Source: Paracoccaceae bacterium
Lineage (GTDB): Bacteria; Pseudomonadota; Alphaproteobacteria; Rhodobacterales; Rhodobacteraceae
Assembly (NCBI GenBank): GCA_024639125.1
Contig: JAHEJA010000001.1
Location: 78,859-142,858 of the forward strand
Direction of reading: 5' to 3'
DNA: 64,000 nt
The notes under the pieces are model-generated. The model was given only the letters and a program-made list of their open reading frames with translations. It made no database searches and had not been told where the DNA came from. Positions 6,959 through 57,533 of the stretch are shown here, one piece after another. Made by a program: the position numbers and the translations under genes. Every line of letters starts with the position of its first letter. Within the stretch, counting starts at the first letter, position 1.

Positions 6959-7906
6959 ATGCGATTTATTATGAAATTTACAAGAAAACCATTACACGCG
7001 GTACTATTTGTTGCCCTATTAGGCAGCTTGTGTGCCCCTTTGACTGCGCAGGAACGGGATCGCACATTTGTCGGCTATGGTCGTTTGCTGACCAACGATT
7101 TGCTTGGCGATGGACATGATCGTTGGCAAACGGGGTCGCTGCAAACCAGCCGCGTTTGGGCTCCGCATCGGCCGGATATTGTCCCCACAAGATTTGGTGA
7201 CATGATAGAATTTCGCTTGAATGCTCAGGTCACGGCCCCTTGGGATTTAACGCGCGACGCGTTCGGGGATCGCAAGTTTGGTACGGCTTTGACATTTGGT
7301 GTTCACACACATTTCCAACCCAATCACTGGGAATATATCCTTGGTTTAGAAACGAGTATTTTAGGCAAAAAGAATGGCCTGGAAACAATACAATCAACGA
7401 TCCACGATTTGGTGGGGGCCGATCAACTTTCACAGTTTGTAACAAAAAATCAGATAAAATCCCAAGTTCTCTTGGGCGGGGTCGCCGAAGCAAGTCGCGA
7501 TTTTGATTTTTCTGACAGGTTGCGCATGGTGCCTTTTGCCGAGCTGCGATTTGGTATGGAATCTTTGGTGCGGTTTGGTGCGGATATCAACATTGGACAC
7601 ATTGCCAAACGCGATTTTGCAATTCGCGATGCAGTAACAGGTTTCAAATATGCAACGGTTATTCATCCAGAGCAGGGGACATCGTTTATTTTAGGGGCTG
7701 ACACAGCTTTTGTTCAAAACTCTGCATTTTTGCCAAGCGATGGTTGGGCGCAGCTTACCAATATCCGTCACCGCGTGCGTGCGGGTGTTTTGCACAAAGG
7801 CAAGCGGATAGATTGGTTTTATGGCGCAACATGGCTGAGCCCTGAATTTGATCAACAGGCGTCTGGCCAAATTGTCGGGTCGCTTCGAATTGATCTAAAG
7901 TTCTGA
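6959..7906 (+). CDS. LpxR-type lipid A deacylase family outer-membrane protein
   Basis: About 315 residues with a signal peptide (core HAVLFVALLGSLCAPLTA, cleavage before QERD) and a beta-barrel-like body ending in Phe. The start of the mature protein, GRLLTNDLLGDGHDRWQTGS, matches the LpxR (DUF2219) signature. In Salmonella LpxR the Asn-Asp pair, a Ser and a later His form the active site; the Asn-Asp, a Ser in TGS, and a His in FGVHTH are all present. The enzyme removes the 3' acyloxyacyl chain from lipid A at the cell surface. ATG 6959 follows GGTGGGA at good spacing; ATG 6971 is the alternative, and the open frame further upstream runs through the preceding terminator and is rejected. The stop abuts that of the convergent thioredoxin gene. 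Confidence 0.82.
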   Translation: MRFIMKFTRKPLHAVLFVALLGSLCAPLTAQERDRTFVGYGRLLTNDLLGDGHDRWQTGSLQTSRVWAPHRPDIVPTRFGDMIEFRLNAQVTAPWDLTRDAFGDRKFGTALTFGVHTHFQPNHWEYILGLETSILGKKNGLETIQSTIHDLVGADQLSQFVTKNQIKSQVLLGGVAEASRDFDFSDRLRMVPFAELRFGMESLVRFGADINIGHIAKRDFAIRDAVTGFKYATVIHPEQGTSFILGADTAFVQNSAFLPSDGWAQLTNIRHRVRAGVLHKGKRIDWFYGATWLSPEFDQQASGQIVGSLRIDLKF

Positions 7907-20007: not shown

Positions 20008-20045
20008 AACGCGCCGATCGGGGATCGACCCCAATCGGCGCGTTT
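20008..20045 (+). terminator. Strong hairpin after fhs
   Basis: The arms 20008-20023 and 20029-20044 form a stem of about 15 pairs with one mismatch around a five-base loop. Only a short T run (GTTTGCCTTT) follows, so termination may be partial and allow some read-through into folD. Confidence 0.7.
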
Positions 20046-20079
20046 GCCTTTGGCAAGGATATTTTTAAAAAGAAGAAGG
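20044..20079 (+). repeat. Copy 1 of a hairpin + GRRTATTTTT + A/G-rich intergenic repeat
   Basis: TTGCC-TTT-GGCAA (20044-20056) is followed by GGATATTTTT and AAAAAGAAGAAGG. It sits between the fhs hairpin and the folD start and supplies the purine-rich ribosome site of folD. Two related copies lie at 56779-56816 and 56927-56968. Confidence 0.55.
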
Positions 20080-20086
20080 AAAGACA

Positions 20087-20980
20087 ATGGCGGCGACTGT
20101 GATTGATGGAAAAGCTTTTGCAGCGCGCGTGCGGGGCCAAGTGGCAGAGCATGTTGCGCGCTTGAAAGAAGAAAGCGGGATCATTCCCGGTTTGGCCGTC
20201 GTTTTGGTTGGAGAAGATCCAGCTAGCCAAGTGTATGTGCGTTCAAAGGGGAAACAAACCGTTGAAGTCGGGATGAATTCCTATGAACATAAGTTGGATG
20301 TGGATACGAGTGAAGCGGATCTTTTGGCGCTTATTGATCGTCTGAATAAAGATGCGGATGTGCATGGTATCCTTGTTCAGCTGCCTTTGCCCAGCCATTT
20401 GAACGAAGACATGGTGATCAATTCGATTGATCCTGCTAAGGACGTAGATGGGTTTCATATTTCAAACGTTGGCTTGTTGGGGACGGGGCAAAAATCCATG
20501 GTGCCTTGTACGCCGTTGGGATGTTTGATGATGCTACGGGATCATCATGGGTCGTTGTCTGGGTTGAATGCTGTTGTCATTGGGCGGTCCAACATCGTTG
20601 GAAAACCTATGGCGCAATTGCTATTGAATGATAGCTGTACTGTGACGATTGCACATTCGCGCACCAAGGATCTTGCTGAGGTTGTGGGTCGGGCGGATAT
20701 CGTCATTGCGGCGGTTGGGCGTCCAGAGATGGTTCCCGGAGATTGGATCAAGCCGGGCGCGACTGTGATTGATGTGGGCATCAACCGTATTGACAAGCCA
20801 GAAGGCGGAACGCGTTTGGTTGGCGATTGCGATTATGCGTCTTGTGCAGCGGTTGCCGGTGCAATTACGCCTGTACCAGGGGGCGTAGGGCCGATGACCA
20901 TTGCGTGTTTATTGGCAAATACTGTCACAGCCTGTTGCCGTGCACATGGGTTAATCGAGCCACAGGGATTGACGGCCTAA
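20087..20980 (+). CDS. folD: Bifunctional methylenetetrahydrofolate dehydrogenase/methenyltetrahydrofolate cyclohydrolase
   Basis: 297 residues. Interconverts 5,10-methylene-, methenyl- and 10-formyl-tetrahydrofolate with NADP. Catalytic Lys in YVRSKGKQ near 50-57, QLPLP near 100, the Rossmann segment [16 protein letters not shown] near 165, and [10 protein letters not shown] near the end are all intact. An A/G-rich stretch GAAGAAGGAAAG precedes the ATG. It is co-directional with fhs and functionally paired, but a strong hairpin between them suggests unequal expression. Confidence 0.98.
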
Positions 20981-54752: not shown

Positions 54753-56756
54753 ATGCGCATTTTAAAATCCCTTTTTCTATTCGTCATTGCAATTGTTCTT
54801 GTTGCAGTCGCAGCAGTTTTTGTGATCCCAAAAGAAAAAATCGCGCAAGCGGCTTTTGCCAAAATAGAAGACGCAACAGGACGCAAAATCACGGCTTCTG
54901 GCGATGTTAGCATTCGTCTTTTTCCGGTGCTTGGTGTCAGCATTTCCGGCGTGGAAATGGCGAATGCTGATTGGTCCACGTTGGGGCCGATGGTATCTGC
55001 CGAGCAATTGAACGTTGGCGTTAAAACGGGCCCACTCTTGCAAAAACGTATCGAAGTCAGCCAGCTTGAATTGATAGCGCCTAAATTGATTTTGGAAATT
55101 GCATCCAATGGCACAGGTAATTGGGTTTTTAACGCAACGGCGCCGAACGATGCTGTATCCACCGCTAACAACACGACACAGAGCGCGACGACCACGCCAA
55201 CCGCTGTTCCGGATGTGACCCTAAGCACCGTTACAATCAAGAATGGCGACCTACGTTTTGTCGATCATGCAGCAGCGTCAGATTATCAGCTAAGCGCGCT
55301 CAACTTAACGTTAGATTGGCCCACGCTTGCCGCGGATGTAAGCGCAAGCCTGTCTGCTCAGTTCAACGGCCAGCCAATTTCTGTGACACTTGCGTCTACC
55401 TCGCCAATGGATTTGATCAACGGTAAAAGCGCAACTGTTGATCTAAGCGCGGATCTTTCTGGTTCACAGATTAAATATGATGGCACTGTGTCCATGGCTC
55501 CGAATGCCACCGGATCATTGAACGCCGACATTCCCAATATTCCCGCGCTTCTCAGCCTTGCAGGACTATCTGGCGTGGCGCTTCCTGACTTCATCGGGAA
55601 TAGCGCCAAAGTAAAGACAGATATATCGTTCTCAGAAAATCGCATCTCTTTGCCGAACCTGTCAGTAGGACTAACCAAAAATGCGATTTCAGCGTCGCTC
55701 GACATTGCGCTAGCAGCCAAAGCAACAGTATCGGGATCCGTCAATATTGGTGATTTTGACATGCGCTCTGTAGGGGGTGCCGATCAAGGCACTGCTGGAT
55801 CGAAAACCTCTGCTAGTACGTCGACAGGATGGTCAACAGCCCCCATTGACGTAAGCGCGCTTGGTGCATTGAATGCTGATATCGCGTTGACTGCGCGCTC
55901 GCTGAAATTGGATGCCCTGTCGACACAGGCAATTTCTGGTAGGATTGCACTTAACGATAGCCGCGCAACAGTTATACTAAACGATGTTGCAGCCTACGAC
56001 GGAACCATAAAAGGCGAAGTGATCCTGAATGGTCGCAAAGGTTTATCCAGCTCAGCGGATCTTCGGGCGACGCAAATCGCGATGAAACCGCTACTGACTG
56101 AAATGGCGGAAATTACCAAATTTGGAGGACGTGCCGATGTGTCATTGTCCTACCTATCAAATGGTAATTCGCTGGATGCTTTGATTAAAAACCTATCGGG
56201 TCAGGGGGCTATTTCTTTTGTCCAAGGTCACTTTGATGGTGTCGACATGGATAAATTAATGCGCTCTGGTGATGTGGGGTCAGGAACCACTGTATTTGAC
56301 GATCTTAATGCGAGCTTTTCTATTAAAGAAGGCGTCGTTACAAACAAGGATTTGAAACTTTCGCTGCCAAATTTCGCCACTTTCGGAGAAGGGCAAATCA
56401 ACCTCGGTGCGCAAACGATTGATTACCTCTTGTCGCCCAAAGCTCTAAAAGCACGCGATGGCAAAGGTTTATCAATTCCGGTTCGCATCAAGGGCCCTTG
56501 GAGCGGCCCAAAAATCATCCCCGATCTAGAAGCGGCTGTGAACCAAAACTTGGAAGCTGAAAAAGCCAAGGCAGAAGCCAAGGTCAAAGCAGCAGTTGAG
56601 GCCGAAAAAAAGAAGATCGAAGACAAGGCTAAAAAGAAAGTTGAAAAAGCCTTGGGTGTCGAGATTCAGAAAGGCCAAAAAGTCGAAGACGCCGTCAAAA
56701 AGAAAATTGAAGACGAAGCCAAAAAAGGCGTGCTAAAATTATTGGGTAAAAAGTAA
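54753..56756 (+). CDS. AsmA family envelope protein
   Basis: 667 residues. N-terminal signal anchor (LFLFVIAIVLVAVAAVFVI), an AsmA N-terminal domain (DATGRKITASGDVSIRLFPVLGVSISGVEMAN in parts), a long beta-rich body, and an AsmA C-terminal domain with LSGQGAISFVQGHFDGVDMDKL near 485-506. The last 70 residues are a Lys/Ala/Glu-rich helix. AsmA proteins bridge inner and outer membranes and are linked to phospholipid transport. TAAGGAG precedes the ATG. Confidence 0.9.
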   Translation: MRILKSLFLFVIAIVLVAVAAVFVIPKEKIAQAAFAKIEDATGRKITASGDVSIRLFPVLGVSISGVEMANADWSTLGPMVSAEQLNVGVKTGPLLQKRIEVSQLELIAPKLILEIASNGTGNWVFNATAPNDAVSTANNTTQSATTTPTAVPDVTLSTVTIKNGDLRFVDHAAASDYQLSALNLTLDWPTLAADVSASLSAQFNGQPISVTLASTSPMDLINGKSATVDLSADLSGSQIKYDGTVSMAPNATGSLNADIPNIPALLSLAGLSGVALPDFIGNSAKVKTDISFSENRISLPNLSVGLTKNAISASLDIALAAKATVSGSVNIGDFDMRSVGGADQGTAGSKTSASTSTGWSTAPIDVSALGALNADIALTARSLKLDALSTQAISGRIALNDSRATVILNDVAAYDGTIKGEVILNGRKGLSSSADLRATQIAMKPLLTEMAEITKFGGRADVSLSYLSNGNSLDALIKNLSGQGAISFVQGHFDGVDMDKLMRSGDVGSGTTVFDDLNASFSIKEGVVTNKDLKLSLPNFATFGEGQINLGAQTIDYLLSPKALKARDGKGLSIPVRIKGPWSGPKIIPDLEAAVNQNLEAEKAKAEAKVKAAVEAEKKKIEDKAKKKVEKALGVEIQKGQKVEDAVKKKIEDEAKKGVLKLLGKK

Positions 56757-56778
56757 ATTCAGCACACCAATTCAAGTA

Positions 56779-56816
56779 CGCCTTCGGCGAGAGTATTTTT
56801 AGCAAAAAGAAAACAA
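56779..56816 (+). repeat. Copy 2 of the hairpin + GAGTATTTTT repeat (after asmA)
   Basis: CGCC-TTC-GGCG (56779-56789), A, then GAGTATTTTTAGC and an A-rich run. The 26 bases 56791-56816 match the reverse complement of 56927-56952 at 25 positions. It starts 23 bases after the asmA stop on the sense strand. Confidence 0.75.
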
Positions 56817-56820
56817 ATGC

Positions 56821-56844
56821 GCCCCAACTTTTGAAGGTTGGGGC
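56821..56844. terminator. Probable bidirectional terminator between asmA and gcrA
   Basis: GCCCCAAC (56821-56828) pairs with GTTGGGGC (56837-56844) around an eight-base loop. Downstream on the plus strand is GGCTTTCTCTTT; downstream on the minus strand is GCATTTGTTTTCTTTTTG. Both are T-rich, so it may stop both convergent transcripts. Confidence 0.75.
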
Positions 56845-56926
56845 GGCTTTCTCTTTGCACTGTCATCGGCTCTCCAGCCTGTACCGTGAATTTACTCTAA
56901 GATGAGAATCTTAACAAAAAGCTATC

Positions 56927-56968
56927 TTGTTTTCTTTTTGCCAAAAATACTCAAATGCCATCAGCGGC
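56927..56968 (-). repeat. Copy 3 of the hairpin + GAGTATTTTT repeat (after gcrA)
   Basis: Read on the minus strand, GCC-N6-GGC (spanning the gcrA stop), ATTT, then GAGTATTTTTGGC and an A-rich run. It is the inverted partner of copy 2, one mismatch in 26, and begins at the gcrA stop. Confidence 0.75.
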
Positions 56969-57533
56969 GGCGATCGCGACGTGTGCTCATTGGTTGAAAC
57001 GCCACGCCCACATGTGCTTCGCAATAGGGCTTGCCAGATTGTGTGGGAAGGCCACAGAACCAAAAGTCTTCTGTTGCAGGATCACCAACGGGCCATTTGC
57101 ACGTACGTTCAGTGAGCTCTAGCAAGCTTATTTTTTTTGCCTTCTTTTCAACTTCATTGACCCGAGCAAGTGCCTCTGGACTTATTTCGTTCGCAGAAGG
57201 CTGTGGGGGAAGGGGTTGACCGGCTGGTATGATTTGCCGGCGCGCAGGAGTGGTTGCTACGATTGCAGGCTTCGTTTCCATTTCAACTTTGGGTTCAGGA
57301 TCCGACTTAGCAGCCTTGGGCGGCGCTTTGGGCGCGGCTTTTGCTTTGGCTTCTGTTTTGCTTGCTGAATTGGCCGTTGTTGTCGTGGCACGGTTCGACA
57401 ACCCTAGGCGATGCACTTTGCCGATAACGGCATTGCGCGTCACGCCACCGAGTTCTTTTGCAATTTGGCTCGCGGATTGGCCTTCGCCCCACATTTTCTT
57501 TAGCAGTTCGACGCGTTCATCGGTCCAAGACAT
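56961..57533 (-). CDS. gcrA: GcrA cell cycle regulator
   Basis: 190 residues. The N-terminal helix-turn-helix SWTDERVELLKKMWGEG...SQIAKELGGVTRNAVIGKVHRLGL is nearly invariant in alphaproteobacteria. The middle is Ala/Pro/Lys-rich, and the C-terminal zinc-like part (CKWPVGDP...FCGLP...YCEAHVGVA) binds sigma70. GcrA activates promoters with CcrM-methylated GANTC sites. The gene is flanked by a repeat and a terminator, not by a cell-cycle operon. Confidence 0.96.
   Translation of the reverse strand: MSWTDERVELLKKMWGEGQSASQIAKELGGVTRNAVIGKVHRLGLSNRATTTTANSASKTEAKAKAAPKAPPKAAKSDPEPKVEMETKPAIVATTPARRQIIPAGQPLPPQPSANEISPEALARVNEVEKKAKKISLLELTERTCKWPVGDPATEDFWFCGLPTQSGKPYCEAHVGVAFQPMSTRRDRRR

Follow-up and report, generated by a model that had tools for sequence, protein, structure and literature searches.

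A conserved hairpin unit between convergent asmA and gcrA genes may be a small non-coding RNA gene with cognate sites dispersed through the genome

The stretch analyzed here is a 64,000-nucleotide window of a Paracoccaceae bacterium genome (contig JAHEJA010000001.1, positions 78,859 to 142,858), in which an asmA-like gene on the plus strand (54753..56756; Pfam AsmA, E=3e-40) converges on gcrA on the minus strand (56961..57533; Pfam GcrA, E=1e-50). The region between their stops, at 56756 and 56961, carries an inverted repeat pair, and we describe that pair, the structured unit that it encloses, and similar elements dispersed through the genome. The original prediction of a match at 25 of 26 positions was borne out by direct comparison of both copies, GAGTATTTTTAGCAAAAAGAAAACAA (56791-56816, plus strand) and GAGTATTTTTGGCAAAAAGAAAACAA (56927-56952, minus strand), which differ by a single mismatch. 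As had also been predicted, each copy lies in sense orientation 3' of its own gene: the right element, R (GAGTATTT-TTA-GCAAAAAGAAAACAA), is 34 nucleotides past the asmA stop, and the left element, L (head GAGTATTT, spacer TTG, box GCAAAAAGAAAA), is 8 nucleotides past the gcrA stop. A short GCC/GGC stem expected before both copies is clear at R (CGCCTTCGGCG, 56779..56789, plus strand, followed in the window sequence by AGAGTATTTTT), as it is before many dispersed elements, while the minus-strand copy has only a weak stem. Terminator-like stems detected by a scan lie at 56820-56845 on both strands, with none at the element head.

When the intergenic region was searched in relatives, a second conserved stretch surfaced between the two copies. 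The conserved unit spans about 160 base pairs of the minus strand and consists of L, a promoter-like stretch, hairpin 1, an internal box (I), hairpin 2, and inverted R. Downstream of L (56927..56952), a promoter-like TTGTTA-N17-TAAATT, identified by eye at 56889..56917 on the minus strand, lies just upstream of hairpin 1, and GTTAA(C/G) occurs at a similar place in other units. Hairpin 1 (CACGGTACAGGCTGGAGAGCCGATGACAGTG, 56858..56888, minus strand) is near-invariant, with an internal loop ACA/GATG and covarying pairs, and is followed by box I (GCAAAGAGAAAGCC, 56845..56858, minus strand), which resembles L and R except for a fixed G where they have A. The GC-rich hairpin 2 (GCCCCAAC..GTTGGGGC, 56820..56847, minus strand) is terminator-like on both strands and is closed at its base where I pairs with the right arm, TTGTTTTCTTTTTGCTAAAAATACTC, which is R (56791..56816, plus strand) as read on the minus strand of the unit. 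Aligned loci share one architecture: L, 45-60 nucleotides, hairpin 1 (CGGTACAGGC-nnnn-GCCGATGACCG), box I, GC-rich hairpin 2, inverted R, and GCCGGAGGC.

Hairpin 1 and, with the reservation given below, the stem formed by I and R show the covarying helices expected of a structured non-coding RNA. For hairpin 1, 98.1% of cells were paired and four pairs changed on both sides, giving a covariation score of 0.243 compared to 0.083+-0.020 for shuffled alignments (0/500) and at most 0.076 for slid controls. In the I:R stem, both partners vary from unit to unit at nine of 10 pairs, although this score is inflated because rows were selected for matching. RNA folding gave z = -5.3 for another locus, L308, and -4.2 for the window, and in the predicted folds, a long hairpin with I:R as its closing stem comes after hairpin 1. 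The single long cruciform originally proposed for the two arms need not form, as the internal box pairs with the right arm in the predicted RNA.

The two ends of a unit, L and R, have a common dialect, made up of a GAGTATTT-type head, a free 3-nucleotide spacer, and a box of 10-12 nucleotides. The boxes of L and I agreed at 9 or more of 10 positions in 54/76 units, compared to 41/903 comparisons across units and 6/380 shuffled ones; for R and I, the same level of agreement was reached in 49/76 units and in 56/903 comparisons across units. The mismatch that remains is highly regular, with G in I and A in L in 45 of the 54 matching units (at the eighth nucleotide past the ACC of hairpin 1 in 41), and G in I and A in R in 40 of 49. 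Since box I has G where R has A, the I:R stem contains one invariant G.U wobble, and this is the pair that never varies between units.

To follow the unit across genomes, a covariance model (R1) of hairpin 1 plus the box was built from sequence-similar matches; it matches the window at 56845-56890 (C79:135703-135748). R1 units were found in 198/249 Rhodobacteraceae genomes (one per genus), with one to seven in each and four in the genome of the window. A class-wide sample gave matches in 13/289 genomes, eight of them outside Rhodobacteraceae. Large genome scans were strictly filtered, so absences should be interpreted with caution. Hairpin 1 is also present on plasmids of Paracoccus, Cereibacter, Rhizobium, Neorhizobium, Azospirillum, and Thiothrix; on three small Rhizobium/Neorhizobium plasmids (L343, L345, and L376), the unit lies about 450-540 base pairs from the 3' end of repA each time.

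A known RNA family was rejected, as Rfam at its curated gathering thresholds returned no family for the window or the unit loci, except for a tRNA in locus L378, and a relaxed search of 56700-57000 gave a best match of E=0.81. Phage origin was likewise rejected: 50,697 phage records contained no match, and the one viral contig that turned up was unconvincing. Literature searches for the motif and for such a system, in which coverage of subscription journals was poor, found no description. The available portion of a P. denitrificans small RNA study neither identifies nor excludes the unit (PMC5107571), and the same holds for the accessible part of an R. pomeroyi study (PMC4809877).

Elements resembling L and R are dispersed through the whole 2.75-Mb genome. 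The pattern GAGTATTTNNNNCAAAAAGAA has 33 exact and two one-mismatch copies, compared to none for the reversed control, and 42 copies of the motif were found when a variable spacer was allowed. A second dialect, GAGTATTTnnnCAAAGATGAA with box CAAAGATGAA, contributes about 33 further copies. The bare head GAGTATTT occurs 118 times, compared to 28 for its reversed control. With an expectation of 0 from shuffled windows and these reversed-pattern controls, a chance repeat was ruled out; the copies in the genome clearly showed neither the lack of excess copies nor the random placement that would have spoken against a defined module. The general form of an element is the head GAGTATTT, about three free bases, and a box CAAAnnnGAA, often preceded by a GCC-nnn-GGC stem or by a GC hairpin and then ACCCCC.

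The dispersed elements follow the dialects of the units in the same genome. In G102, an unrelated genome, we first read the boxes from three units and then sought the heads in 505 kb. The combinations GAGTATTT+CAAGATGAAG, GGATATTT+CAAGAGGAAG, and GGGTATTT+CCAGAAAGAAG were found 23, 5, and 22 times, respectively, and all off-diagonal cells were 0. All 50 boxed elements (six of which are unit ends) therefore join a head to the box of its own unit, while reversed heads gave no boxed element. In the genome of the window, two units bear the two main GAGTATTT dialects and the head of a third is GGATATTT; a pattern covering the box of this third unit had seven matches, including the unit end and one at window 20057, compared to 0 for the control. 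As in RNA-guided systems, the variable part of the putative RNA matches the sites in sequence. Across the 249 genomes, the median excess of GAGTATTT was 2.9 with a detected unit and 1.5 without (p=4e-6, not corrected for phylogeny). Judged from these sequences, the dialect common to L, I, and R is specific to the unit, and every main dialect is matched by a unit and a dispersed set of its own.

Placement was examined with genes called by a simple codon-based caller, making the calls approximate. Of 91 elements, 78 were intergenic, compared to an intergenic share of 11% in the sampled DNA; 27 of these lie between convergent genes, 23 in tandem sense, 20 in tandem antisense, and six in divergent positions, with two undetermined. 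In 29/78, the stop of an opposite-strand gene starts 14-19 nucleotides past the head (at exactly 16 in 15 cases) with the box abutting it, a placement seen for 1.7% of random intergenic positions. These flush stops were TAG in 16/29, compared to 71/307 genes of the sampled loci. Flush placement was not reproduced in G102, where gene calling was poor and 40% was called intergenic. The proposed 3'-end module thus held up as a defined, repeated, mostly intergenic element often adjoining stops, while its reading as a plain sense-strand terminator was ruled out by orientation: rather than the sense orientation at gene 3' ends expected of intrinsic terminators, antisense elements, whose boxes are flush with the stop of the adjacent gene, were about as frequent, and a few elements were divergent or intragenic.

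Positions of units and elements are often kept between genera while the dialects drift. About 20 genera share a unit that adjoins the same genes (acyl-CoA dehydrogenase or glutathione S-transferase/thiolase) yet differs in dialect in many cases. An element at the argD/argF junction (genes tentatively named from the starts of the encoded proteins) occurs in roughly half of the genera sampled, again with a changing dialect, and is missing from others. Units and elements thus keep their places as the code that they share changes in step. No shared neighbor of the units was found other than the resident beta-oxidation locus, in an analysis that did not include a genome-wide co-occurrence search.

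Individual elements add further detail. In the window, an element of the third dialect (GGATATTT, box AAAAAGAAGAAG; 20057..20080, plus strand) is flanked by fhs (stop 19999) and folD (start 20087) and is cognate to the unit at G000:C31:35525; at 20040-20090, its purine-rich box is directly upstream of the folD start, at the position expected of a ribosome-binding site. An element-like match, GAGTATTTTAGGCAAAAAGAATG (7354..7377, plus strand), falls within an LpxR-like coding sequence, and several in-gene copies, with in-frame matches such as EYFIKDE, may have arisen by chance in coding sequence. One in-gene element looks real: at position 1801 of L215 (G000:C25:18625), the coding sequence for the xanthine dehydrogenase large subunit (xdhB) contains an element complete with its GCC stem, at a loop whose length differs between the Rhodobacter capsulatus and rat enzymes. 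At the argD/argF junction (L079-L152), the hairpin next to many elements has the form GGGGG-loop-CCCCC-n-CCCCC, in which the G-run could pair with either C-run, and this form recurs in Rhizobium and Azospirillum units. Spacers are free elsewhere, but in G368, a 2-Mb genome of a different alphaproteobacterial family, GAGTATTTGAGCAAAAAAAGAA occurs 15 times without variation, even in the spacer.

Collectively, these findings suggest, with about an even chance in our estimate, that the repeat pair encloses a gene for a small non-coding RNA, belonging to a family that is widespread and apparently undescribed, and that about 90 similar elements in the genome are its cognate sites. Together, the unit and its dispersed tags look like an uncharacterized guide-and-target system. 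More tentatively, and at somewhat below even, we propose that Alphaproteobacteria have an RNA-guided system of a new class, in which a scaffold hairpin would carry a guide recognizing tens of dispersed, two-part, gene-adjacent sites, with several orthogonal guide/site sets per genome and a fixed G-for-A difference separating guide from sites. The unit would be transcribed from just before hairpin 1, which could serve as a scaffold for a conserved partner. The RNA would recognize the dispersed elements, either as RNA in 3' untranslated regions or as DNA, by base pairing through I or through the right arm, whose complement spans both head and box. When the RNA is free, I would act as a lid on the right arm, weakened by the G.U wobble; since a true site has A, it would outcompete I, and the unit would not be counted as its own target. 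Any effect would fall on 3' ends, on termination, or on antisense transcription near stop codons.

Such a system would share features with known guide RNAs (CRISPR, omegaRNA, bridge RNA, and the internal guide sequence of group I introns), in which a conserved scaffold hairpin is followed by a variable matching stretch, and the fixed G.U wobble recalls the splice-site pair of group I introns. Unlike those systems, no nuclease, transposase, or intron core was found with the units, and the matched sites are host chromosomal elements. The unit also resembles trans-acting small RNAs in being an intergenic unit of about 100 nucleotides with hairpins and a terminator-like end, but its target-matching part drifts fast while tens of sites follow.

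Several observations weigh against a guide RNA with cognate sites. The proposed promoter at 56889-56917 is absent from the list of an automatic promoter scan, some L or R arms are degenerate or missing (for example, in L345, L347, and L349), and outside the resident locus, no open reading frame or common gene adjoining the units was found. Dialects drift, although a guide serving tens of sites would be expected not to change, and the elements lie both ways round genes, a poor fit to a purely mRNA-level antisense model. The correspondence between units and elements is also incomplete. A three-fold excess of GAGTATTT was still present in 13/51 genomes without a detected unit, and no unit was found for the minor dialects CAAAAGTGAAG, CAAATGTGAAG, and CAAAGCTGAAG of the window's own genome (about a dozen copies; for example, at L214, L243, L238, and L255), whose assembly is 96% complete. 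In G190, G030, and G086, where one of two units was read, it mismatched most of the dispersed elements listed.

The principal alternative, which we consider possible but rather unlikely, is a bidirectional 3'-end element acting in termination, as a roadblock, or in 3' protection, and read by sequence-specific proteins with drifting specificity. The unit would then be an ordinary small RNA gene insulated by two sites, with I matching R as the foot of a terminator stem. The intergenic bias and flush placement at stops agree with this, as does the GC hairpin that usually adjoins the head, and I is purine-rich and the right arm pyrimidine-rich, like terminator A- and U-tracts. Intrinsic (Rho-independent) terminators similarly have a GC hairpin by a T-rich stretch near gene ends, and the I:R stem is comparable to their A-tract/U-tract foot; however, the head and box of the elements are specific in sequence and to the genome, with distinct dialects in both orientations, and the T stretch appears not to follow the stem directly. 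Protein readers leave the invariant G in I and the pattern of one unit per main dialect unexplained, would have to number three for the three separate head/box pairs of one genome, and do not fit antisense elements that also occur in tandem gene pairs.

Less probable still is a miniature mobile element, with the unit as a transposable element with inverted ends and the dispersed elements as solo ends or copied insertions. Inverted ends, multiple copies, a lineage-specific consensus, and occurrence on plasmids would suit such an element, as would the element and stem in xdhB, at a loop variable between homologues. Like REP/REPIN sequences with their RAYT transposases, the elements are short, dispersed, intergenic, and hairpin-associated, with tens to hundreds of copies per genome. 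Unlike them, they are two-part with a free spacer, their specificity tracks an RNA-like unit, and the core, GAGTATTT-nnn-CAAAnnnGAA, is asymmetric rather than palindromic and lacks a GTAG- or CGTC-type tag. Even within one unit, the spacer of L is free to differ from that of R while head and box are constant, which disfavors simple copying, and positions are conserved across genera despite the change of dialect. Units in general have no adjoining transposase, and neither target duplications nor empty sites were seen; in four Paracoccus records the unit is at an identical place, and some genera lack the argD/argF element. A search for strain-level gain and loss in 40-kb Paracoccus stretches contained only the unit itself and no dispersed elements.

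A genome-wide DNA signal (an uptake sequence or a nucleoid or replication site), with the unit as an unrelated passenger, is highly improbable: mixed orientation relative to genes and lineage dialects recall the DNA uptake sequences of Neisseriaceae, which are also conserved dispersed motifs sometimes paired at gene ends, but those number about 1000 copies or more compared to 118 for GAGTATTT (28 in the control) and tens per dialect here, where several dialects share a genome with the main ones tied to units, elements are placed by stop codons, and the same dialect recurs within the structured RNA-like stem of the units.

Even on a conservative reading, the unit represents a structured RNA-like family present in 198/249 genera and absent from Rfam. 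If the units and elements do form a guide-and-target network, most Rhodobacteraceae, among them bacteria abundant in the sea as well as laboratory models (Paracoccus and Cereibacter, for example), would carry an unrecognized RNA with a code that has counterparts at tens of sites close to gene ends. This would raise the questions of what reads the tags, and how a code shared by tens of sites can change without breaking.
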